From Vulcanimicrobiota bacterium (GTDB lineage: Bacteria > Vulcanimicrobiota > Vulcanimicrobiia > Vulcanimicrobiales > Vulcanimicrobiaceae), in assembly GCA_019232905.1 (NCBI GenBank), contig JAFANA010000057.1, positions 1 through 64,000 of the forward strand: a stretch of 64,000 bases of DNA, written 5' to 3'. Under the pieces are notes generated by a model that was not told the DNA's origin, made no database searches, and was given only the letters and a program-made list of their open reading frames with translations. Shown piece by piece: positions 7,814 through 26,197 of the stretch. Within the stretch, counting starts at the first letter, position 1, and each line of letters opens with the position of its first letter. Made by a program: the position numbers and the translations under genes.

Positions 7814-10069
7814 CTACTCGTCGTGACGGCCGGGTGGGCGACGGCGGCGACGCGTCGGCGGTGCGCCGGGTCCACCCGGTGCGGCTGCCGATTCTTCGCG
7901 TTCGCGCGGACGGAAGGCACCGTTGCCGCGTTGTCCTTGACCGTCATCGCTTCCCGGCGCGAGCAGTGCTTTGCGCGAGAGGTTGATGCGGCCTTGGCCG
8001 TCGATTTCCATGACCTTGACTTCGACTTGATCGCCGACTTTGACGACGTCTTCCACTTTATCGACGCGCTGCGGCGCGAGTTGAGAGATGTGGACGAGGC
8101 CTTCTTTACCCGGAAGAATCTGCACGAACGCGCCGATTGCGATCGTGCGTGTGACCGTGCCGAGATATGTTTCGCCGACGACGACGTCTTTGGTGATGTT
8201 CTCGACGATTTGTTTCGCCTTGTCACCGCTCTCGCCGTCAAGCGAAGTGATGAAGACCGTTCCGTCGTCCTCGATGTCGATTTTCTCGACGCCCGTGTCT
8301 TGAATGATCTTGTTGATGATCTTGCCGCCGGGGCCGATGACGTCCTTGATCTTGTCCGGGTTGATCTTGATGACGATCATGCGCGGCGCGTACTTCGAAA
8401 GCGACTCGCGCGGTTCGGCGATCGTTTCAGCGAGCTTGTCGATGATGAAGAAGCGCGATTCCTTCGCGCGCGCCATCGCTTCGCGCATGATGTCGATCGT
8501 GATGCCTTGCACCTTGATGTCCATCTGAATCGCGGTGATGCCCTTCTTGGTGCCCGCGACTTTGAAGTCCATCTCGCCGAGCGCATCTTCCAGGCCTTGA
8601 ATGTCGGTAAGAACCGTGTAGGCCTTACCTTTGAGGATCAAGCCCATCGCAACGCCGGCGACGTGCTCTTTGATCGGCACGCCTGCGTCCATCAGTGCGA
8701 GTGAGGAACCGCAAACCGACGCCATTGACGACGATCCGTTCGATTCGAGCACTTCGCTAATCAAACGAAGCGTGTACGGGAAATCTTCCTTCTTCGGCAG
8801 CACCGGCTCGAGCGCGCGCTCGGCCAGGTGGCCGTGACCGATTTCACGGCGCCCGGGTCCGCGCATCGGACGTGTCTCACCGACCGAGTACGGCGGGAAG
8901 TTGTAGTAGTGCATGTAACGCTTCTCTTCGAGGTCCATGATCCCGTCGAGACGCTGCGCGTCGCTCGTCGAACCGAGCGTCGCCGCGGTGAAGACTTGCG
9001 TCTGTCCACGCGTGAACACGCCTGAACCGTGCACGCGCGGCACGTAATGCACCTTGGTCCAAATCGGACGAATTTCATCCGGCTTGCGGCCGTCGGGACG
9101 AATCTTTTCGTCGACGACCATCGTGCGTAGTTCGTCCTCTTCCATCGCCTTGATGATCTTGCCGAAATCTTTGGCGATTTTTTCGTCTTCAAGAAGGTCG
9201 CGGACGTCTTCGTCTTTTTTGCCTAAACGCGCGATCGCTTCGTCAACGTTGAGTTTGTCGAGTGCTTCTTCGCGTTCGCCTTTATCGACGACGCGCATCG
9301 CTTTGGCGACGTCTTTAGCAAAGTTCTTGCGAACCCACTTCTCGAGATCGCTGTTGACTTTCTTGAGCGGATATTCGCGCTTCTCTTTGCCGTATTTCTT
9401 CGCGAGCTGATCGATCGATTTGACGATCTTCTTGATTTCGTTATGCGCGAACGCGACGGCGCCGAGGAAATCTTCCTCGGAAATTTCGTGGCCGCCGCCT
9501 TCAACCATCATCACTGCATCGGCCGTGCCGGCGATGACGATGTCCATGCCGCCGGTTTCATATTGCGGCAGCGTCGGATTGCAGATGTACTTGCCGTTCT
9601 CATCGCGGCCGACACGCACGGCGGCAACGGTTTTATCGAACGGAATGTCCGAAAGCGCAAGCGCTGCGCCTGCGGCGCAGACACCGAGCACGTCCGCATC
9701 GAGTTCCGGATCGATCGAAAGCACCGTCGCGACGATCTGCACGTCGTTGTGAAAGCCCTCGGGGAACAGCGGACGAATCGGGCGATCGATTTGGCGCGAG
9801 CTGAGCACGGCGTGCTCGGACGGACGTCCTTCGCGCTTGATGTAGCCGCCCGGGATCTTACCGGCCGCGTACATCTTCTCTTCGAAATCGCAGGTGAGTG
9901 GGAAAAAGTCGATGCCTTCACGAGGTTTCTCGGAGGCAGTGACGGCGCAGAGCACGACGTTCTGGTCGCCATAGCGGATCAACGCGGAGCCGTTTGCTTG
10001 CTTCGCGAGTTCGCCGGTTTCAATGACCATCGTGCGCCCGCCGACCTCAAGGGTCACGGATTCGGGCAC
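7814..10069 (-). CDS. pnp: Polyribonucleotide nucleotidyltransferase (PNPase)
   Basis: A 751-residue full-length PNPase, the 3'-5' phosphorolytic exoribonuclease of RNA turnover. It has two RNase PH domains (about 10-230 and 310-540) with the intervening helical domain. Diagnostic segments are DFFPLTCDFEEKMYAAGKIP, KREGRPSEHAVLSSRQIDRP and MRGPGRREIGHGHLAERAL. A KH domain (DKIKDVIGPGGKIINKI) and an S1 domain (VGETYLGTVTRTIAIGAFV) follow, then a basic low-complexity tail. The start is GTG 10069, preceded by CTAGGAGTAATC, a good ribosome site. Unlike in many bacteria it is not next to rpsO, which lies about 16 kb away. It ends at a strong terminator. Confidence 0.97.
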   Translation of the reverse strand: MPESVTLEVGGRTMVIETGELAKQANGSALIRYGDQNVVLCAVTASEKPREGIDFFPLTCDFEEKMYAAGKIPGGYIKREGRPSEHAVLSSRQIDRPIRPLFPEGFHNDVQIVATVLSIDPELDADVLGVCAAGAALALSDIPFDKTVAAVRVGRDENGKYICNPTLPQYETGGMDIVIAGTADAVMMVEGGGHEISEEDFLGAVAFAHNEIKKIVKSIDQLAKKYGKEKREYPLKKVNSDLEKWVRKNFAKDVAKAMRVVDKGEREEALDKLNVDEAIARLGKKDEDVRDLLEDEKIAKDFGKIIKAMEEDELRTMVVDEKIRPDGRKPDEIRPIWTKVHYVPRVHGSGVFTRGQTQVFTAATLGSTSDAQRLDGIMDLEEKRYMHYYNFPPYSVGETRPMRGPGRREIGHGHLAERALEPVLPKKEDFPYTLRLISEVLESNGSSSMASVCGSSLALMDAGVPIKEHVAGVAMGLILKGKAYTVLTDIQGLEDALGEMDFKVAGTKKGITAIQMDIKVQGITIDIMREAMARAKESRFFIIDKLAETIAEPRESLSKYAPRMIVIKINPDKIKDVIGPGGKIINKIIQDTGVEKIDIEDDGTVFITSLDGESGDKAKQIVENITKDVVVGETYLGTVTRTIAIGAFVQILPGKEGLVHISQLAPQRVDKVEDVVKVGDQVEVKVMEIDGQGRINLSRKALLAPGSDDGQGQRGNGAFRPREREESAAAPGGPGAPPTRRRRRPPGRHDE

Positions 10070-15417: not shown

Positions 15418-15459
15418 ATGGTTGCAACCAATCCTGACAGAAGAGCACCAAAACAATGA
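15418..15459 (+). CDS. Possible 13-codon leader peptide coupled to ggt
   Basis: ATG at 15418 opens the 13-residue frame MVATNPDRRAPKQ, whose TGA overlaps the ggt ATG (ATGA, 15456-15459). GATTAT at 15404-15409 lies 8 nt upstream and could be its -10. The ggt start itself has only a distant purine run, so coupling from this ORF may be how ggt is translated. Too short for coding statistics; inferred from position only. Confidence 0.3.
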   Translation: MVATNPDRRAPKQ

Positions 15460-17096
15460 TATTTGCTGCATTACTTCTCGCTGCGGCACTCGCGCCGGCC
15501 GCAGGTACGAACGCGATGGTCGCCACGGAACAGCATCTGGCAACACAAACCGGCGTCGACATCCTAAAAGTTGGAGGTAATGCGGTCGATGCGGCGGTGG
15601 CCGTCGGGTATGCACTTGCAGTCGTAGACCCATGTTGCGGCAACATCGGTGGCGGCGGGTTCATGCTCATCCGAATGCACGACGGACGCGAGCGGTTCAT
15701 TGACTTTCGAGAAAAGGCACCAGAGCGCGCGTCTCGCGACATGTATCTCGACGCGCGCGGCAACGTCGATCCGGAGAAATCGCGCAAGGGCTGGCTCGCT
15801 ATCGGCGTGCCCGGAACCGTGATGGGCTTGGATCGCGCGTTGCGCGAATACGGAACGATGTCGCGATCGCGCGTAATGTCGAGCGCGATCGATCTTGCGC
15901 GAAACGGGTACGTCGTCGAACCCGGCGACATGATCCCGTTCGAAGGCTCGCCCGCGGAAGGCTATAGCGGATGGGCCTTCGGTGAAAAACCGCACGTCGG
16001 CGAACGCATCGTGCAGCGCGATCTCGGTGCTTCGCTTGATTCAATTGCGCGCGACGGCGACGGCGCCTTCTATCGAGGTGCGATCGCGCGCAACATCGTC
16101 GACGCATCGCAGCGCAACGGCGGCCTGCTGACGATGCGTGATTTCGCAGATTACACCGTTGACGAATCGCAGCCAGTGCATTGCACGTATCACGATCTTG
16201 ACGTCGTCTCGGCGCCACCGCCGAGTTCGGGCGGCGTGACGCTCTGCGAAATACTCAACATCATCTCGCCGTATCCGCTCGCGCAGTGGGGCTGGCACAG
16301 CCCGCGAGAGACGCACTACGTCGTGGAAGCGGAACGCCGCGCCTATGCCGACCGCAACGCGTATCTCGGCGATCCGGCGTTCGTTCACGATCCTATCGCG
16401 CAGCTTCTCGATCCGCGCTACGCCGCGTCATTGCGTAAGTCGATCGCTCCCGTTGATCCGACGCCGTCGAAACAAGTGAAGCCCGGTCTTCACATAACCG
16501 TGCACGAAAACGACGATACGACGCACTACTCGATCGTCGACAAAGACGGAAATGCGGTCGCCGTCACGTACACGATCAACGACTGGTTCGGCTCGGGTGT
16601 CGTCGCGCCGCACACGGGATTCTTTCTCAACGACGAGATGGACGATTTCACGTCGAAACCCGGCGTGCCGAACATGTTCGGTCTCGTGCAAGGCGAACGC
16701 AACGACATTCAACCCGGAAAACGTCCGCTCTCGTCGATGACGCCGACGATGGTGTTGCGCGACGGGAAACTTGCGATGGTCACCGGCAGCCCCGGCGGAT
16801 CGCGCATCATCACCATCGCGCTCGAAACAATCCTGAACGTCTTTGACTTCGGAATGAACGTACAACAGGCCGTCGATGCGCCGCGCATGCATATGCAGTG
16901 GCTACCCGATCAAATTCAGTATGAGCCAAATGCCTTTACGGCAACAACGATGAACGCGTTACGCACGGACGGCTACGCATTTTCGGAAGTTCCGTTCTGG
17001 GGTTCCGCGCAAGCGATCGTTATCGATCCAAAAACCGGTATGCGTTATGGCGGGACGGACCGTCGTCATCCCGCAGGAGCCGCGATAGGCTACTGA
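15456..17096 (+). CDS. ggt: Gamma-glutamyltransferase (glutathione hydrolase)
   Basis: A 546-residue periplasmic proenzyme of the N-terminal nucleophile family. It cleaves itself at a Thr and then hydrolyses or transfers gamma-glutamyl groups from glutathione and related peptides. A signal peptide occupies about residues 1-17. The large subunit has GGNAVDAAVAVGYALAVVDP and GNIGGGGFMLIR. The cleavage site and nucleophile are in NDDTTHYSIVD, and the substrate-binding SSM and GSPGGSRI motifs follow (RPLSSMTPTMV, VTGSPGGSRIIT). The length is normal. It begins inside an ATGA overlap with a 13-codon ORF and is divergent from the kinase gene. Confidence 0.94.
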   Translation: MIFAALLLAAALAPAAGTNAMVATEQHLATQTGVDILKVGGNAVDAAVAVGYALAVVDPCCGNIGGGGFMLIRMHDGRERFIDFREKAPERASRDMYLDARGNVDPEKSRKGWLAIGVPGTVMGLDRALREYGTMSRSRVMSSAIDLARNGYVVEPGDMIPFEGSPAEGYSGWAFGEKPHVGERIVQRDLGASLDSIARDGDGAFYRGAIARNIVDASQRNGGLLTMRDFADYTVDESQPVHCTYHDLDVVSAPPPSSGGVTLCEILNIISPYPLAQWGWHSPRETHYVVEAERRAYADRNAYLGDPAFVHDPIAQLLDPRYAASLRKSIAPVDPTPSKQVKPGLHITVHENDDTTHYSIVDKDGNAVAVTYTINDWFGSGVVAPHTGFFLNDEMDDFTSKPGVPNMFGLVQGERNDIQPGKRPLSSMTPTMVLRDGKLAMVTGSPGGSRIITIALETILNVFDFGMNVQQAVDAPRMHMQWLPDQIQYEPNAFTATTMNALRTDGYAFSEVPFWGSAQAIVIDPKTGMRYGGTDRRHPAGAAIGY

Positions 17097-17175
17097 TAAA
17101 CCGGGCAGGCAGAGGGAGGCAGATGCGGGTCCCTGCCATCCTGCCGCTTGCTGTGGCGAAGGGAGAGCTCCGGCG

Positions 17176-19140
17176 ATGCCGCCAGAGCGACAACCGCTGC
17201 CGGCCGTCGTGCTGGTGACGGATCGCATGTTGCGCCTTGCGACCGCGTTTGGTCCGCCGGGCATGAGCGAAGAATTAGACGCGCTTCGCTCCTCCGCGCA
17301 ACCGCTTGATTCGGCGTGGCCGAAAGCCGGTCGATTATTGCGCGCATTGCGCGCAGCGTTACGCGGAAAACGCATGAATTTTTCCGTGGATCTCGGTTCC
17401 GCGCATATCGATGGACAAGCGATGCCGCTGCATTCTACGGATGGTGAGATAGACGGCGCAATTGCCGTCGGAATCGATACGACCGACCACGCGCGGCTAC
17501 GACACGAGATCGATGAGTTGCGCGAAGCCTTGCGTCACGCGCAGAGCGTATCGAGCTTCGCATATTACGTCGTCGATATTCCAAATCAAAAAGTCAACGT
17601 GTCACCGCCGTTTGCGCAGATTTGGGGGCTTCCCGAAGGAACCACGGAACTGCGCTACGCGGAATTGCTCGAACGCGTCCATCCTGAGGATCGCACTTCA
17701 TTCGACGTCTTCGGGCGCGAATCGCTGCAATGCCGCATCGTGCGCCCGAGCGGCGAGGTGCGCCACATTCGGACCTTTGGGACCTATTTTCCGAGCTCGA
17801 ACGGAACGGCAGCGCGCAGCGTCGGCAGCGTCTTTGACTTCACGGAGTTCGCGCAAGCGCAAAACGCCGTCCAGTTCCTCAGCACGCACGATCCTTTGAC
17901 GGGTCTGCTCAACCGGCACCAATTGATCGAAGCGCTCAACGCGTACCTGGATCAGGCGCGAACCGGCGCACTCGTCGTCTTCGACATCGACCGGTTTGCG
18001 CAAGTGAACGAGCTTGCCGGCCACGCCGTCGGCGATCAACTTTTGCGCGCGATCGCGGAGCGCATGCGTTTTCTCGAAGATGAGGGCCACTACATCGCGC
18101 GCTTGGGATCCGACGAATTCGCGTGTTTTCTGATCGAACCGGCGGATCGACCCGTCGTCGATCGCGACGTGGAGCGCCTGCGCGACGCACTCGACGCACC
18201 GTTTACGGCAGGGCATACGGAGATCGTGGTACGCGCGACGATGGGTCTCGCGCGTCATCCCGATCACGGCACCGGCGAAACGCTGCTGCAAAATGCCGGC
18301 ATCGCGTTGTACACCGCAAAAGCGACGATGCGCGGCGGCACGATGTCGTACGATCCCGCGCTCGACCGAAAGATGAGCGTGCGCAGCCGGCTCGAGCGCG
18401 ATCTTGCAAATGCGGTGCGCCGTAATGAATTTGCGATGTACTATCAGCCGCTCATAGATGCAGCGAGCGGTGAGGTCATAGCAACCGAAGCACTGCTGCG
18501 GTGGCAGCATCCGGATCTTGGACTGCTGACGCCGGACGTGTTTCTCAATATCGCCGAAGAAAGCGACGCCGTCGTCGACATCGGCCGTTGGGCGATCGAT
18601 CGCGCGTGCCGCGACGCGCGCGCCATTCGCAAAGAAATGCAGTCGAAGTTGCGGCTCAACGTCAATGTCTCGCCGCGTCACGTGCAATCGAACAAGTTGG
18701 TCGGCCACGTCAACGACGCGCTCGACGAAACGGGTTGGGAGCCCGACGCGCTGCAGCTCGAGGTTACGGAACAACTCCTGATCGAGGACATTCCGAGTGC
18801 CGTTGCCACGCTGCAGCGGTTGCGCGATTCCGGCATTTCGATCGCGATCGACGATTTCGGCACGGGCTACAATACGTTGTCGTATTTAAAATCGTACCCG
18901 GTGACGTGTTTGAAAATCGACCGCGCGTTTGTGAAAGACGCCGAGAGCGATAACTACAGTCGTGCCATCTGCCGATCGGTGGCGGCACTCGCGGATTCGC
19001 TCGAAATGAACGTAATCGGCGAAGGCGTCGAGACCGACGGACAGGCCGATTTTCTACGCGGGATCGGGTGCCGCGAGCTTCAGGGGTATAAGTTTGGGCG
19101 TCCCGTCACGGCATGGGACTTTATGACTGCCTATACATGA
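17176..19140 (+). CDS. PAS-GGDEF-EAL protein, probable c-di-GMP phosphodiesterase
   Basis: A 654-residue cytoplasmic protein: an N-terminal region of unknown fold (1-110), a PAS-like domain (about 120-230), GGDEF (about 235-395) and EAL (about 405-650). The cyclase motif is GSDEF (about 311-315, in IARLGSDEFAC), so cyclase activity is doubtful. The EAL domain keeps the catalytic set: TEALLRW, NVNVSPRH, LEVTE, IDDFGTGYN, KIDRAF, GEGVET and LQGYKFGRP. I therefore infer it degrades c-di-GMP. A purine-rich ribosome site (AAGGGAGAG) precedes the ATG. The stop overlaps the next start (ATGA), coupling it to a protein with the opposite pattern of degeneration. Confidence 0.9.
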   Translation: MPPERQPLPAVVLVTDRMLRLATAFGPPGMSEELDALRSSAQPLDSAWPKAGRLLRALRAALRGKRMNFSVDLGSAHIDGQAMPLHSTDGEIDGAIAVGIDTTDHARLRHEIDELREALRHAQSVSSFAYYVVDIPNQKVNVSPPFAQIWGLPEGTTELRYAELLERVHPEDRTSFDVFGRESLQCRIVRPSGEVRHIRTFGTYFPSSNGTAARSVGSVFDFTEFAQAQNAVQFLSTHDPLTGLLNRHQLIEALNAYLDQARTGALVVFDIDRFAQVNELAGHAVGDQLLRAIAERMRFLEDEGHYIARLGSDEFACFLIEPADRPVVDRDVERLRDALDAPFTAGHTEIVVRATMGLARHPDHGTGETLLQNAGIALYTAKATMRGGTMSYDPALDRKMSVRSRLERDLANAVRRNEFAMYYQPLIDAASGEVIATEALLRWQHPDLGLLTPDVFLNIAEESDAVVDIGRWAIDRACRDARAIRKEMQSKLRLNVNVSPRHVQSNKLVGHVNDALDETGWEPDALQLEVTEQLLIEDIPSAVATLQRLRDSGISIAIDDFGTGYNTLSYLKSYPVTCLKIDRAFVKDAESDNYSRAICRSVAALADSLEMNVIGEGVETDGQADFLRGIGCRELQGYKFGRPVTAWDFMTAYT

Positions 19141-20945
19141 AGTTCGCCTTGAGCGGCGAAACAGGCGGAGCGGTGTTTGACGATATCTTCGGACTCGTTC
19201 AGTCTATACTGGGCGACGCTGGTAGCGTTGTACCATCGGAAGATCGCGCCCTCGCATTCGCGCGGATTGCTGCAATGCGGGCATTTCTCGCGCGCCTTGA
19301 AACAGAATTGCCACAGGTTATTGCCGAAGCGTTATTAGAAGCTGCTCGCGTGACCGGCGCCGACGTGGCTGCGATTCTCGAAATGCAGACGTCCGGGATG
19401 AGATTCGTCTGCTCTACCGATCCGACGCTGCTCGATGAAACCGTGGAATGGGAGAACGACCGCAAAGAGCTCGGCGACCGCGGATCTGGTGTCCTGCGCA
19501 AGGCTGCGGCCGTGAAAGACGCGCTCTGCTCGACCTTCACCGCCGACGACCGGCGTTGGGCGTTGCTCCTGGGTGAACGGACGGGCCGCCTGCAGCGCGA
19601 TGCCTTTGAAGCGCAGGCGCAAGTCATCCTCGACGTGCTTACGCACCTGCTGCGCTTCCGCTCTGCGCGAGCCGAAGGGCGTGCGATGTTGGACCATCTG
19701 ACGGGCCTTCCGGATCGCTGGTCGACGATGAGCCGCCTGACGGAGACCGTCATCGCCGCCAACCGCAACGAAACGCGTTCGGCGCTACTCTTCATCGATT
19801 TGAACGGTTTCAAGAACGTCAACGATCGCTACGGTCACGCGCACGGCGACGCGGCGCTGAAGTCCATTGCAACGAAGATGCGCGACGCACTGCGTTCCAA
19901 CGAATTCGTCGGCCGCATCGGCGGCGATGAATTCGCTGTCGTGCTGCCGATGGTGCGTAGTTACGAGGAAGCCACTGCGGCGGCAGCGCGTTTGGCCGAG
20001 GGCGTGCGCGATTTACATATCAGCTACGGCGAGGAAAGCGTGTCGGTGAGCATCGGCATCGCGTTCTTCCCCGAACACGCGTCGAACGAAGACGAGTGGC
20101 TGCATCACGCCGATCTCGCGATGTATCAAGCCAAGCGCCAGCGGCAAAGCTACTGCGTTTTCGTGCCGGGCGCCACGCCGAGCGACGTCCGTGCAATGAG
20201 CATCGATGTCGAAGAAGCGTACGACCGCGAGTTTCTGCTGTGCTTCCAGCCGATCTTCGACGTGCAATCCGGAGAAGTCGTTGCGGCCGAAGCGCTGTTA
20301 CGGTCGCTTCATCCCCGAAGCGGCGTGCAATCCGCGCTCACGACCATGGAAGCGGCGCGCGCGCGCAAGTCACTCGAGCACCTCGATGCGTGGGTGACGC
20401 GTCGCGCGTTACGCTACGCGAACGAGTGGCGCGATCAAGGCGTCATGCGCATTCACGTGAACATCGGCGTTGCGAGTGAGGAGATACTCAACGGCGTGTT
20501 GCGAGCGATCGATGCAAGCGGAACCGACGCATCAATGCTCGCCGTGGAACTGGACTGGAGGCGATTCAGCGACGACCTGGACGCGCACCGTTCGTTTGCA
20601 GAGGCGGCTGAACGCTGCGGTTTATATGTCGGACTCGATGGGTTCGGCGATAGCCCGCTCGATCTCGCGATGCTCGAAACGCTCGCCGTTCGTTTCGTGA
20701 AACCGTCGAAAGTGCTTCTACCATCCGGCGGTGCGACCGGACGCGGTATGGAAGCGATCGTTGCGATTTCGCAGGTCTATGGGTGGGACGTCATCGCGAC
20801 GCGTGTCGCAACTGCTGACGACCGTGCAGCGATCCGAACGGCCGGCGTCAAATACATGCAAGGATTCGCGGCCGCACAGCCCATGACCGCAATCGATTTC
20901 GAACAATGGATAGAAAGCAGCCCGCGTATCGCTCTCGTGAGTTGA
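19137..20945 (+). CDS. GAF-GGDEF-EAL protein, probable diguanylate cyclase
   Basis: A 602-residue protein: a GAF-like N-terminal sensor (about 20-175), GGDEF (about 180-345) and EAL-like domain (about 355-595). The cyclase half is intact, with FIDLNGFKNVNDRYGHAHGD and IGGDEFAVV. In the EAL half the EAL triplet remains (AAEALLRS), but other metal and catalytic residues are gone: DDFG has become LDGFGD, the E-x-T-E strand reads AVELDW, and GEGVET has become ATRVAT. The half is therefore probably a non-catalytic binding or regulatory domain. ATG 19137 overlaps the upstream TGA. An earlier in-frame start at 19113 lies inside the upstream gene. Confidence 0.88.
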   Translation: MKFALSGETGGAVFDDIFGLVQSILGDAGSVVPSEDRALAFARIAAMRAFLARLETELPQVIAEALLEAARVTGADVAAILEMQTSGMRFVCSTDPTLLDETVEWENDRKELGDRGSGVLRKAAAVKDALCSTFTADDRRWALLLGERTGRLQRDAFEAQAQVILDVLTHLLRFRSARAEGRAMLDHLTGLPDRWSTMSRLTETVIAANRNETRSALLFIDLNGFKNVNDRYGHAHGDAALKSIATKMRDALRSNEFVGRIGGDEFAVVLPMVRSYEEATAAAARLAEGVRDLHISYGEESVSVSIGIAFFPEHASNEDEWLHHADLAMYQAKRQRQSYCVFVPGATPSDVRAMSIDVEEAYDREFLLCFQPIFDVQSGEVVAAEALLRSLHPRSGVQSALTTMEAARARKSLEHLDAWVTRRALRYANEWRDQGVMRIHVNIGVASEEILNGVLRAIDASGTDASMLAVELDWRRFSDDLDAHRSFAEAAERCGLYVGLDGFGDSPLDLAMLETLAVRFVKPSKVLLPSGGATGRGMEAIVAISQVYGWDVIATRVATADDRAAIRTAGVKYMQGFAAAQPMTAIDFEQWIESSPRIALVS

Positions 20946-21334
20946 TGGAGACCTGTTCGCTCGTGCAACTCGCGAGCGACGGTTGCAAGTGGTGCGCATC
21001 CGAGCTGCCGAAACGGCGGCGAACGTGGTGCAGCGACAAATGTGCAAACGCCTTCTGGAACAATCATTGGTGGACACTCGCGCGCCGCGCCGCAAAACGC
21101 CGCGACAAATATCGCTGTAAACGCTGCGGCGAACGCGCACCCAAACGCGGCACGCCGAACTATAGCGCGCTACGCAAGACCCACCGCGTCGAAGTCAATC
21201 ACATCGAACAAGCCCGCGGCGCGCACGTCCGACTCAGCTGCTTGCACCACCTGAGCAATCTCGAGACTCTATGCCTGTCGTGCCATAAAGCACACACAGC
21301 CGCAATGAGAAAAGCTAACCGACCTAGCCGCTAG
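20945..21334 (+). CDS. Small HNH-type endonuclease-like protein
   Basis: A 129-residue basic protein. It has several CxxC-type zinc pairs (CKWCAS, CSDKC, CKRCGER, CLSCHK) and an HNH-like core, RVEVNHIEQARG, then CLHHLSNLETLCLSCHKAHT, in which His-Asn-His-like metal ligands are visible. This suggests a DNA-cleaving or DNA-binding beta-beta-alpha metal protein. ATG 20945 shares a base with the stop of the upstream GGDEF-EAL gene (TGATG), so it is probably cotranslated with it. No phage or intein context is present. The role could be repair, restriction or an accessory function, and none is proven. Confidence 0.72.
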   Translation: METCSLVQLASDGCKWCASELPKRRRTWCSDKCANAFWNNHWWTLARRAAKRRDKYRCKRCGERAPKRGTPNYSALRKTHRVEVNHIEQARGAHVRLSCLHHLSNLETLCLSCHKAHTAAMRKANRPSR

Positions 21335-23237: not shown

Positions 23238-23261
23238 CAGGAAACTAGCAGCCGGTTTTGA

Positions 23262-23290
23262 GAAGGGATCATCGTGGCGGTGATCCCTTC
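23262..23290 (+). repeat. 10-bp inverted repeat abutting a start codon
   Basis: GAAGGGATCA, loop TCGTGGCGG, TGATCCCTTC, directly followed by GTG 23291. It has no T-tract, so it is a weak terminator candidate. It could be an operator, or an RNA hairpin that controls translation of the SpoIIE-type protein. Confidence 0.5.
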
Positions 23291-26197
23291 GTGATTCCCA
23301 AGTTCCGCGATGAATTCGACCTCGACGCGATTGCGGCATTCGCCGACGGCTTGCGTCAGATCGTCTGGGTCGTCGGAGACGGCCTTTCATGCGAATATTT
23401 TAATCCCGCGTGGACCGCGTTTACGGGGCTCACCCTCGAACAGTCCGTGGGTTTGGGGTGGCAACTCGCGCTGCATCCGGCGGAGTTGCACCTCGTAGAA
23501 AACCGGTTTAAGGAAAACACCGCGCACGGACTGCCGTACCTCGTCAGTTACCGTTTGCGCTCGGTCGACGACCGCTACCGCCTCTTTACGGGTGCAATGT
23601 TTCCGGTGCGCGATACGAGCGGTGCCGTTCGGAAATGGATCGGCATCGTCGACGAGCCCGATCCGATGGAACGCGCAAACGACCGCTTCAAAGTGCTCGC
23701 CGACGCGCTGCCCATGCTCGTCTGGACCACCGATCGCGAAGACCGGCTCACCTTTGTCAATCACGCTTGGTATGAATACACGGGTCTCGGCGTGGGGTCG
23801 CTGATCGAAGAGCGCAACGCGCTCGTACATCCCGAAGACCTCGGGCGTTTGATGCATGCACTGCGCAGCGGTGCGGTGGAAGTGGAGTTTCGGTTCCGGC
23901 GCCGCAGCGACGGTACGTATCGTTGGCATTTGCTGCGATGGGTGCGCACGGAAATGGGCGATGAAATGCCGTTTTCACGAATCGGTACCGCGGTCGACAT
24001 TCAAGACCGGCATGTCGCGCAGATCGAGCGCGAACGGCAGTTGCGCGTTATTGCCGAAGCCGTTCCCAACATCGTCTGGTCGACGCGTGCGGACGGCGTA
24101 CAAGATTACGTCAACAGCGCGATGGCCGAGTACGTCGGGAGAAAACCCGAAGAGACGATGGATCAGTCGTTCACGACCTTCGTCCACCCCGACGATCTCG
24201 CAGCGACGGTAGAACGCTGGAAGCGGTCGTTCGAAACCGGCGAGGCGTACGAGCACCGTTACCGCTTGCGTCGTCACGACGGCGCCTATCGATGGTTTCT
24301 CGCACGCGGGTCCGCATTACGCGATGCATCCGGGCAGATCACGCGTTGGTTCGGTACGGCGACCGATATCGACGACGAGATGCGGAGTAACGCGATTCTC
24401 GCGGCGAGCGAATCGCACTATCGCATGCTCGCCGAAGCAATGCCGAATATCGCCTGGTCCGTGCGAGGCGACGGCGTTCAAGATTACGTGAACGACGCGT
24501 GGTACCGTTATACAGGTCTGCGCACCTTCAGTTCCGATGCGTACGCACCCGAGGATCGCGAGGCGATTCGCGTAGATTGGGAGCGTTCGTTTCAAAGCGG
24601 CGAACCGTTCGAGCGCGAGATGCGCATCCGCCGCAGAGACGGCGTCTTCCGATGGTTTCTTTCGCGTGCGCTTCCGCTGCGCGATCAGCAAGGCCGCGTC
24701 GTCCGGTGGTTTGGGACGGCAACGGATATCGACGATCAAAAACGCGCCGAACTTCAACAGTCGTATCTCGCTTCGCTCGGAAACATCATCAACGAGACGT
24801 GGTCGGTGGACGTTATGATCGAACGCATTACAAAGTCCGCCGTGCCGCAAATGGCGCAGTGGTGCGCGATCGAACTGAACGAAGGCAAACGCACGGCGCA
24901 ATCGAGCGCCGGCGCGGTCGATCTTGACGCGGCGCAGCGTTTCCGCGCCCCGCTTTCCGTCCGCGGCGAAACGATCGGCACGCTTTTGGTTGCGCGCACC
25001 GCGGAGTTCGGCACATTCGACGAAGGGGACGCCGCATTTTTCGCCGAGGTGGCGCATCGAACGGCGTTGGCCATCAAGAACGCCGAGTTGTACGAACGCG
25101 AACACCGCGTTTCACAGGCGCTTCAATCGGCGTCGCTTCCGAAGACATTGCCGGCCGTGCCGTGGATGGAGACCGATGCAGTCTACGTCCCCGGCAGTGG
25201 TGAAGCGCAAATCGGCGGCGATTGGTACGACGCATTCCGGTTACCCGACGGGCGTCTGGTCTTCTCGATCGGTGACGTCGCGGGAAGCGGTCTCGATGCG
25301 GCGGTCACGATGAGCAATATGCGTCAAATTATTCGGGGCACGGCGCAAGTGCATGCCGACCCCGTCTTGATGCTCAATGCTGCCGATCGGGCGCTGCGCA
25401 TCGAAGATCCCGAGCGATTCGTCACTGCGTTCGTCGCCGTATTGAGCCCGGTGACCGGCATCATGACCTACGCGAGCGCCGGGCATCCGCCGCCGTATAT
25501 TCGTCACGCATCCGGTGAGATCGATGAACTCATCTTCAGCGATCTCCCGCTCGGCTTGCGCGAGCGACATTATCTCGACGCGGGACAGATCCAAGTGCGT
25601 GCTGATGACGTCATCGTCTTTTACACCGACGGGTTGACGGAATCGACGCGCGATTTAGAAGCCGGCGTTGCGGCATTGCGCGAGGCGATCGCCGATCCGG
25701 ACTTTGCGCGCGCCGCACGTCCCGCCGAGTATTTGCAGGCACGTTTGCTTCCGCAAGGCGCGCGAGACGACGTCGCGATTATGACGGTTCGAATGTTGAG
25801 CGACGATCTGCGGGCGCGGGGACTGCGCCGATGGATATTCCCGAATCTCGATTCCAGTGCGGCGCAACGGCTCCGTCGCGAATTTCGCGAGGCGTTGCAT
25901 TCACGCGGCGCGACGAGCGAGCGAATAGAATTCGCGGAACTCGTCCTCGGAGAATTGGTCGGCAATGCTGCTCGCCATGCGCCGGGATCGCTCGAAGTCA
26001 TTCTCGATTTCAGCAACCGGCGCCCAGTGCTGCACGTGATCGACGAAGGGCCCGGTTTCGAACGTGCGCCGATGTTGCCGCTGGACTTGATGAGCGAATC
26101 CGGCCGGGGCCTCTACATCGTCGCGCAAGCTACGATGGAGTTCAGCGTAATGCGACGCCGCCCGCACGGTAGTCACGCCCGGGCAGTACTGCTGTAA
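23291..26197 (+). CDS. Multi-PAS PP2C (SpoIIE) phosphatase with HATPase anti-sigma-like domain
   Basis: A 968-residue cytoplasmic signalling protein. Four PAS domains run to about residue 500, each with a similar core such as LPMLVWTTDREDRLTFVNHA, VPNIVWSTRADGVQDYVNSA and MPNIAWSVRGDGVQDYVNDA. A short GAF-like segment follows (about 505-620). The SpoIIE-type phosphatase domain (about 625-840) has the metal-binding IGGDWYDAFRLPDG, GDVAGSGLDAA and RDDVAIMTVR. A C-terminal HATPase domain (about 850-968, with ELVGNAARHAPG and DEGPGFE) resembles RsbW-type kinases. Such proteins control partner-switching networks for general stress responses. No anti-sigma-antagonist or sigma gene is adjacent. GTG 23291 was chosen over TTG 23258, which lies before the hairpin. 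Confidence 0.88.
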   Translation: MIPKFRDEFDLDAIAAFADGLRQIVWVVGDGLSCEYFNPAWTAFTGLTLEQSVGLGWQLALHPAELHLVENRFKENTAHGLPYLVSYRLRSVDDRYRLFTGAMFPVRDTSGAVRKWIGIVDEPDPMERANDRFKVLADALPMLVWTTDREDRLTFVNHAWYEYTGLGVGSLIEERNALVHPEDLGRLMHALRSGAVEVEFRFRRRSDGTYRWHLLRWVRTEMGDEMPFSRIGTAVDIQDRHVAQIERERQLRVIAEAVPNIVWSTRADGVQDYVNSAMAEYVGRKPEETMDQSFTTFVHPDDLAATVERWKRSFETGEAYEHRYRLRRHDGAYRWFLARGSALRDASGQITRWFGTATDIDDEMRSNAILAASESHYRMLAEAMPNIAWSVRGDGVQDYVNDAWYRYTGLRTFSSDAYAPEDREAIRVDWERSFQSGEPFEREMRIRRRDGVFRWFLSRALPLRDQQGRVVRWFGTATDIDDQKRAELQQSYLASLGNIINETWSVDVMIERITKSAVPQMAQWCAIELNEGKRTAQSSAGAVDLDAAQRFRAPLSVRGETIGTLLVARTAEFGTFDEGDAAFFAEVAHRTALAIKNAELYEREHRVSQALQSASLPKTLPAVPWMETDAVYVPGSGEAQIGGDWYDAFRLPDGRLVFSIGDVAGSGLDAAVTMSNMRQIIRGTAQVHADPVLMLNAADRALRIEDPERFVTAFVAVLSPVTGIMTYASAGHPPPYIRHASGEIDELIFSDLPLGLRERHYLDAGQIQVRADDVIVFYTDGLTESTRDLEAGVAALREAIADPDFARAARPAEYLQARLLPQGARDDVAIMTVRMLSDDLRARGLRRWIFPNLDSSAAQRLRREFREALHSRGATSERIEFAELVLGELVGNAARHAPGSLEVILDFSNRRPVLHVIDEGPGFERAPMLPLDLMSESGRGLYIVAQATMEFSVMRRRPHGSHARAVLL

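Follow-up and report, generated by a model that had tools for sequence, protein, structure and literature searches.

A likely antagonistic c-di-GMP gene pair in a Vulcanimicrobiota bacterium, assembled from two separate GGDEF-EAL lineages

Organization of the gene pair

We analysed a stretch of 64,000 nucleotides (hereafter the window) from contig JAFANA010000057.1 of a Vulcanimicrobiota bacterium. Two adjacent genes on its forward strand encode the proteins P1 and P2, each of which carries a GGDEF domain followed by an EAL domain (Table 1). Their coordinates, open reading frames and motifs match those of a preliminary description of this DNA, made from the sequence alone. Pfam searches identified PAS_3, GGDEF and EAL domains in P1 (EAL at 232 bits), and GGDEF (137 bits) and EAL (117 bits) domains in P2. 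The N-terminal 160–180 residues or so of P2 had no Pfam match, and the structure model of this region was of low confidence; we therefore assign no sensor to P2. On the right border of the pair, the ATG of the HNH-like gene overlaps the stop codon of P2 (TGATG). Promoter and terminator scans at the P1-P2 junction found no pattern, with matches at chance level only.

Table 1. Features of the P1-P2 locus (window coordinates)
Feature	Coordinates	Strand	Description
Gamma-glutamyltranspeptidase (GGT) gene	15456–17096	+	Left border of the pair in the window and G031
P1	17176–19140	+	PAS-GGDEF(altered)-EAL(complete), 654 aa; predicted c-di-GMP phosphodiesterase
P1 PAS_3 sensor domain, aa 140–218	17593–17829	+	Pfam PF08447, E=2e-7
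P1 GGDEF domain, altered	17884–18333	+	GSDEF 18106–18120; FAQVNE in place of FKxxND; no I-site
P1 EAL domain, catalytically complete	18397–19104	+	EAL 18487–18495; DDFG 18850–18861
ATGA, P1 stop/P2 start overlap	19137–19140	+	Absent from G031 and G060
P2	19137–20945	+	N-terminal region-GGDEF(complete)-EAL(degenerate), 602 aa; predicted diguanylate cyclase; alternative start GTG 19173
P2 GGDEF domain, complete	19683–20147	+	GGDEF 19920–19934; half I-site RSNE
P2 EAL domain, degenerate	20223–20882	+	EALxR kept (EAL 20289–20297); LDGFGD 20634–20651; ATRVAT 20796–20813
HNH-like gene	20945–21334	+	Right border of the pair; Pfam HNH slightly below cut-off

Upstream of P1, an ATG at 17123 with a strong Shine-Dalgarno sequence (GGGAGGcagATG) opens a short frame (17123–17216) that is -1 relative to P1. 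A conserved GTGGCGAAGGGAGAG (GTG 17153) lies in the P1 frame in two related genomes (G031 and G060, see below) and out of frame in the window. The difference is of 1 nt and may reflect either an indel in the assembly or a genuine shift of the start. About 7 kb upstream of the pair, the reverse strand of the window encodes a polynucleotide phosphorylase (7814–10069). In E. coli, PNPase is a c-di-GMP-linked partner of DosC and DosP; no evidence ties the PNPase of the window to the pair. Downstream of the transketolase genes lies a large regulator (23258–26197) with four PAS domains, a GAF domain, a SpoIIE phosphatase domain and an anti-sigma-like ATPase domain.

Catalytic residues and predicted activities

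The catalytic residues were read against MorA (4rnh), PA0575 (5m3c) and the family alignment. All of those of the EAL domain are present in P1. Meanwhile, its GGDEF domain reads DANED and RxGSDEF (RLGSDEF), has no RxxD I-site, and displays Ala and Glu in place of the Lys and Asp of FKxxND. The metal Asp is retained, as are the Asn and Asp that contact guanine and the C-terminal Lys and Arg. The GGDEF domain of P2 has a complete A-site (DKNDD, RIGGDEF and the Lys), with the metal and guanine contacts present. The RxxD inhibitory site, an optional feature, is replaced by RSNE in P2 and by RxxE in its G031 orthologue.

Five of the ten catalytic residues are substituted in the EAL domain of P2: the Glu of (T)E by Trp, the second Asp of DDFG by Gly, the Asp of KID by Ser, and the two Glu of AEGVE by Thr and Ala. 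EALxR, the Asn, the first Asp, the Lys and the Gln are retained, so that the domain reads EALR N W / D G / K S / T A / Q, compared with EALR N E / D D / K D / E E / Q in an active domain. It is nevertheless predicted to fold as an EAL barrel, and its model matched EAL structures with TM scores of 0.8–0.9 per target domain. Judged by these residues, P1 is predicted to be a c-di-GMP phosphodiesterase only and P2 a diguanylate cyclase only. This agrees with the preliminary description, which had read GSDEF and a complete EAL site in the first protein, an intact GGDEF and a broken EAL site (LDGFGD, ATRVAT) in the second, and a cyclase/phosphodiesterase pair in the two together.

Pfam searches of the same genome returned 13 EAL and 19 GGDEF matches, which include about ten tandem GGDEF-EAL proteins. 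Since five of these combine an altered GGDEF with an intact EAL domain, a single active domain per tandem protein is ordinary in this genome. P2 is the only one of them with a clearly broken EAL domain.

Conservation of the pair

A genome from another genus of the same family (G031) carries both genes with the same motifs and order, between the same GGT and HNH/transketolase genes. Identity to the window is 74% over the matched part of P1 and 67% for P2. In G060, a P1 gene with GSDEF is followed by the first codons of a P2-like frame, at which point the contig ends; the pair, its motifs and its synteny very probably recur there too. The pair is known from these three genomes only, one of them cut by the contig end. 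Loss of the motif pattern in close relatives was looked for, and the motifs were found kept in the full pair of G031 and in the P1 half of G060. Meanwhile, G001, which belongs to the genus of the window, displayed an empty site in which the GGT stop codon overlaps the HNH start and both P1 and P2 are missing, and G007 has unrelated sequence where the pair would sit. Wherever the locus is visible, the module is kept or missing as one unit. The HNH gene beside the empty site (L187, G001:C32:108801-109172) has an internal TAG in the matched stretch.

The spacing between the two genes is -4 nt in the window, +7 nt in G060 and +45 nt in G031. The preliminary description had taken the ATGA overlap as a sign that the two proteins are made together. 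The overlap is present and the adjacent genes are probably co-expressed, but it is specific to the genome of the window, and we rejected a conserved ATGA coupling. The ATG of G031 is out of frame, and P2 translation there probably starts at a GTG, with which the in-frame GTG of the window aligns. The sensor region of P1 also varies among orthologues: G031 keeps the second PAS and has no first region, and G060 displays the reverse, with PAS_3 missing. Set beside window 17176–17860, L131 4136–5782 and L130 7743–9506 show that this region is exchanged among orthologues.

Two further arrangements of such genes were observed. G118 (L183 2246–9493) has a run of four adjacent GGDEF-EAL genes that share a strand, and two of these genes overlap by 4 nt. 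In G019 (L148 3643–7294), a GGDEF-only gene (RYGGEEF plus I-site) lies 49 nt downstream of a phosphodiesterase of the P1 clade, an independent pairing of a P1-type phosphodiesterase with a cyclase.

Origin from separate lineages

P1 and P2 share 28% identity. They fell into different clades of a tree built from 82 tandem GGDEF-EAL proteins; this tree and those below were inferred by a quick method with SH-aLRT support, and some of their branches are long. The P1 clade comprises 9 rows (support 99, starred), all with altered GGDEF and intact EAL domains, and the P2 clade 23 rows (support 99, starred), 22 of which have an intact GGDEF and a broken EAL domain and one of which has both broken; rows were collected by similarity to P1 and P2, and the clade sizes are no census. 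The 23 rows span 15 genera of one family. A topology that forced the P1 and P2 orthologues together was rejected (p-AU 0.0004). After removal of the catalytic columns and those next to them, the GGDEF part alone (support 85) and the EAL part alone (99) again gave the 23-row P2 set, and P1 remained in its 9-row set in both.

Around twelve P2-like genes (regions of at most 14 kb, several on short contigs), no second GGDEF or EAL gene was found except in G031. Solo relatives of P1 in genus g19 show the P1-type degeneration, and the P2 type is seen in solo relatives of P2 from 14 further genera groups. Because the solo relatives of each half are already degenerate in the same manner, both degenerations are older than the pairing. 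Relatives in other phyla and on plasmids were only generic GGDEF-EAL proteins of about 25–40% identity.

These results bear on the proposal, made in the preliminary description, that the two proteins were left with one activity apiece after a duplication. On this view a bifunctional GGDEF-EAL gene was duplicated in tandem, its copies lost different activities and the degenerate domains became mutual regulators, which fits with the shared domain order of P1 and P2, their adjacency and their complementary active sites. Yet the low identity, the separate starred clades, the rejection of a joint clade, the agreement of the two domain trees and the solo relatives of both types all argue against it. 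P1 and P2 are not each other's closest relatives, and duplication with subfunctionalisation is refuted by the trees under the models used, which makes this origin extremely unlikely. Instead, the locus indicates that an antagonistic c-di-GMP pair can arise when two older lineages, each mono-functional beforehand, are brought together, with no duplication and division of labour. A natural comparison for what pairing adds is offered by the solo relatives of each half, together with one orthologous pair and the empty site of a congener.

A proposed c-di-GMP turnover module

Both degenerate domains are under purifying selection much like that on the intact ones. Between the window and G031, the GGDEF and EAL domains of P1 are 74% and 80% identical (dN/dS 0.16 and 0.14), and the EAL and GGDEF domains of P2 are 75% and 69% identical (0.14 and 0.19); dS is near or above 1 and the ratios are rough. 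In this comparison the N-terminal regions are less constrained than the GGDEF and EAL domains. Between the P1 of the window and that of G060, the GGDEF domain (65% identity, dN/dS 0.27) is diverging faster than the EAL domain (81%, 0.09). Conservation of the degenerate domains is close to that of the active ones, so that both degenerate domains are probably still functional. In 13 P2-like proteins, E385, R389, N442, D501, K522 and Q575 are invariant, and DDFG is lost in all 13.

Based on these findings, we consider it likely that the pair constitutes a two-gene antagonistic module of c-di-GMP turnover, in which the EAL domain of P1 would hydrolyse c-di-GMP, the GGDEF domain of P2 would synthesise it, and the inactive domains would be kept as regulatory parts. 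In favour of this reading, P1 has all EAL catalytic residues and P2 all residues of the GGDEF A-site, each clade is mono-functional by residues (for P2, nearly all members), G031 keeps the pair with its flanks, G001 lacks both genes together, and the degenerate domains are constrained. Against it stand the unconserved overlap, the faster divergence of the P1 GGDEF domain in the comparison with G060, the small number of genomes with the pair (three, one of them truncated) and the fact that GSDEF does not strictly exclude cyclase activity. The two genes, head to tail between the GGT and HNH genes, are probably translated from one message, and a single message would hold local synthesis and breakdown of c-di-GMP in proportion to each other.

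As to the inactive domains, GTP sensing by the P1 GGDEF domain is our leading idea because its metal- and guanine-binding residues are retained. GTP binding by this domain most likely adjusts the activity of the neighbouring EAL domain, as reported for Caulobacter CC3396, whose altered GGDEF domain (GEDEF) binds GTP and activates its own EAL phosphodiesterase (PMC4823724). FimX is another GTP-responsive case (PMC8846402). The EAL domain of P2 most likely provides a surface either for docking or for binding a ligand. Ligand binding would go through ExLxR, which has been named as the determinant of whether inactive EAL domains bind c-di-GMP (PMC10333796). Physical contacts between GGDEF and EAL domains are known to regulate activity (PMC5635695), and mutual regulation by the degenerate domains, possibly within a P1-P2 complex, may occur here.

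Other readings of the locus have to be weighed. The two genes might be neighbours by chance, with no joint function, since adjacent GGDEF-EAL genes are simply common in the family: pairs or runs occur in G001, G003, G008, G037, G038 and G118, some overlapping by 4 nt. However, no complementary pair was seen among the other adjacent ones examined, and the P1-P2 pair is retained across two genera with the same flanks and is present or absent as a unit, so that a chance association seems improbable. P1 might also be bifunctional, its GSDEF being a weak but working cyclase site. The metal, guanine-contacting and C-terminal residues and the DEF are retained, and GSDEF alone is insufficient proof of lost cyclase activity: relatives with an otherwise complete GGDEF site have it too (L061 and L114), and mutation can activate a Pseudomonas fluorescens protein described as having an 'imperfect GSDEF site' (PMC4395868). 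For both reasons we dropped GSDEF as proof of inactivity. Against a bifunctional P1, all three P1 orthologues share both FKxxND substitutions, the whole 9-member clade lacks the Lys, and related proteins have GADEF or GGDDF at the GSDEF position; we regard a working cyclase site in P1 as quite improbable.

The degenerate EAL domain of P2 could be a c-di-GMP receptor, like those of LapD, FimX and Filp, through which P2 would sense its own product or the pool. The presence of ExLxR and the invariance of the six residues in P2-like proteins are consistent with this. In known EAL domains, however, both Glu of AEGVE and the Asp of KID contact the ligand or the metal, and P2 has none of the three; a receptor role is conceivable, if doubtful. 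More speculatively, P2-type proteins might represent a conserved cyclase lineage, found across 15 genera of one family, whose inactive EAL domain (EALxR, N, D, K and Q invariant, second metal site lost) turned into a dedicated receptor or docking module and became wired to a specific phosphodiesterase in the lineage of the window, yielding a heteromeric synthase-hydrolase switch. We put this forward as an unlikely scenario. The antagonistic turnover module remains our preferred reading, and it has parallels in other bacteria.

Comparison with known systems

A close working likeness is with the classic arrangement of Komagataeibacter (Acetobacter) xylinus, which has three cdg operons in which pdeA precedes dgc and both products are GGDEF-EAL proteins (Tal et al. 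1998, reviewed in PMC6559022), the cyclase having an inactive EAL domain with no phosphodiesterase activity (PMC10333796). Both systems are tandem GGDEF-EAL pairs with N-terminal sensor domains. The cdg-type layout (adjacent genes on the same strand, phosphodiesterase first, cyclase second, both GGDEF-EAL) is found in P1-P2 and retained in G031; this likeness is drawn from published descriptions of the K. xylinus operons. The systems also differ. The products of dgc and pdeA closely resemble each other, whereas P1 and P2, at 28% identity, belong to separate clades. Most catalytic motifs are kept in K. xylinus, the inactivation of one cyclase having been traced to loop 6, whereas the P2 EAL domain lost several catalytic residues. 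In addition, P2 has no recognised PAS.

In E. coli, the antagonistic cyclase and phosphodiesterase DosC and DosP (DgcO/PdeO) are coupled in transcription by their operon and assemble into a complex (PMC8846402). DosP has a PAS-GGDEF(degenerate)-EAL architecture and is among the best structural-database matches of P1. Unlike in P1-P2, the cyclase gene comes first, and DosC has a globin and no EAL domain. P1 (279.8 bits) and P2 (136 bits) scored below the cut-off of the DosP equivalog (NCBIfam NF008467, 857). Caulobacter CC3396/PdeA resembles P1 in combining an altered GGDEF and an active EAL domain in one protein, with GEDEF instead of GSDEF, and no coupled cyclase is described in the available portion of its report (PMC4823724). 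E. coli DgcM/PdeR and LapD/GcbC, in which physical GGDEF-EAL contacts regulate activity (PMC5635695), offer a possible working likeness, although these partners are not co-encoded as P1 and P2 are. The effect of our findings on the field would be modest, since operons of this kind were already known. By layout and residues, the arrangement is one already known from other bacteria, and the pair would work like these operons.
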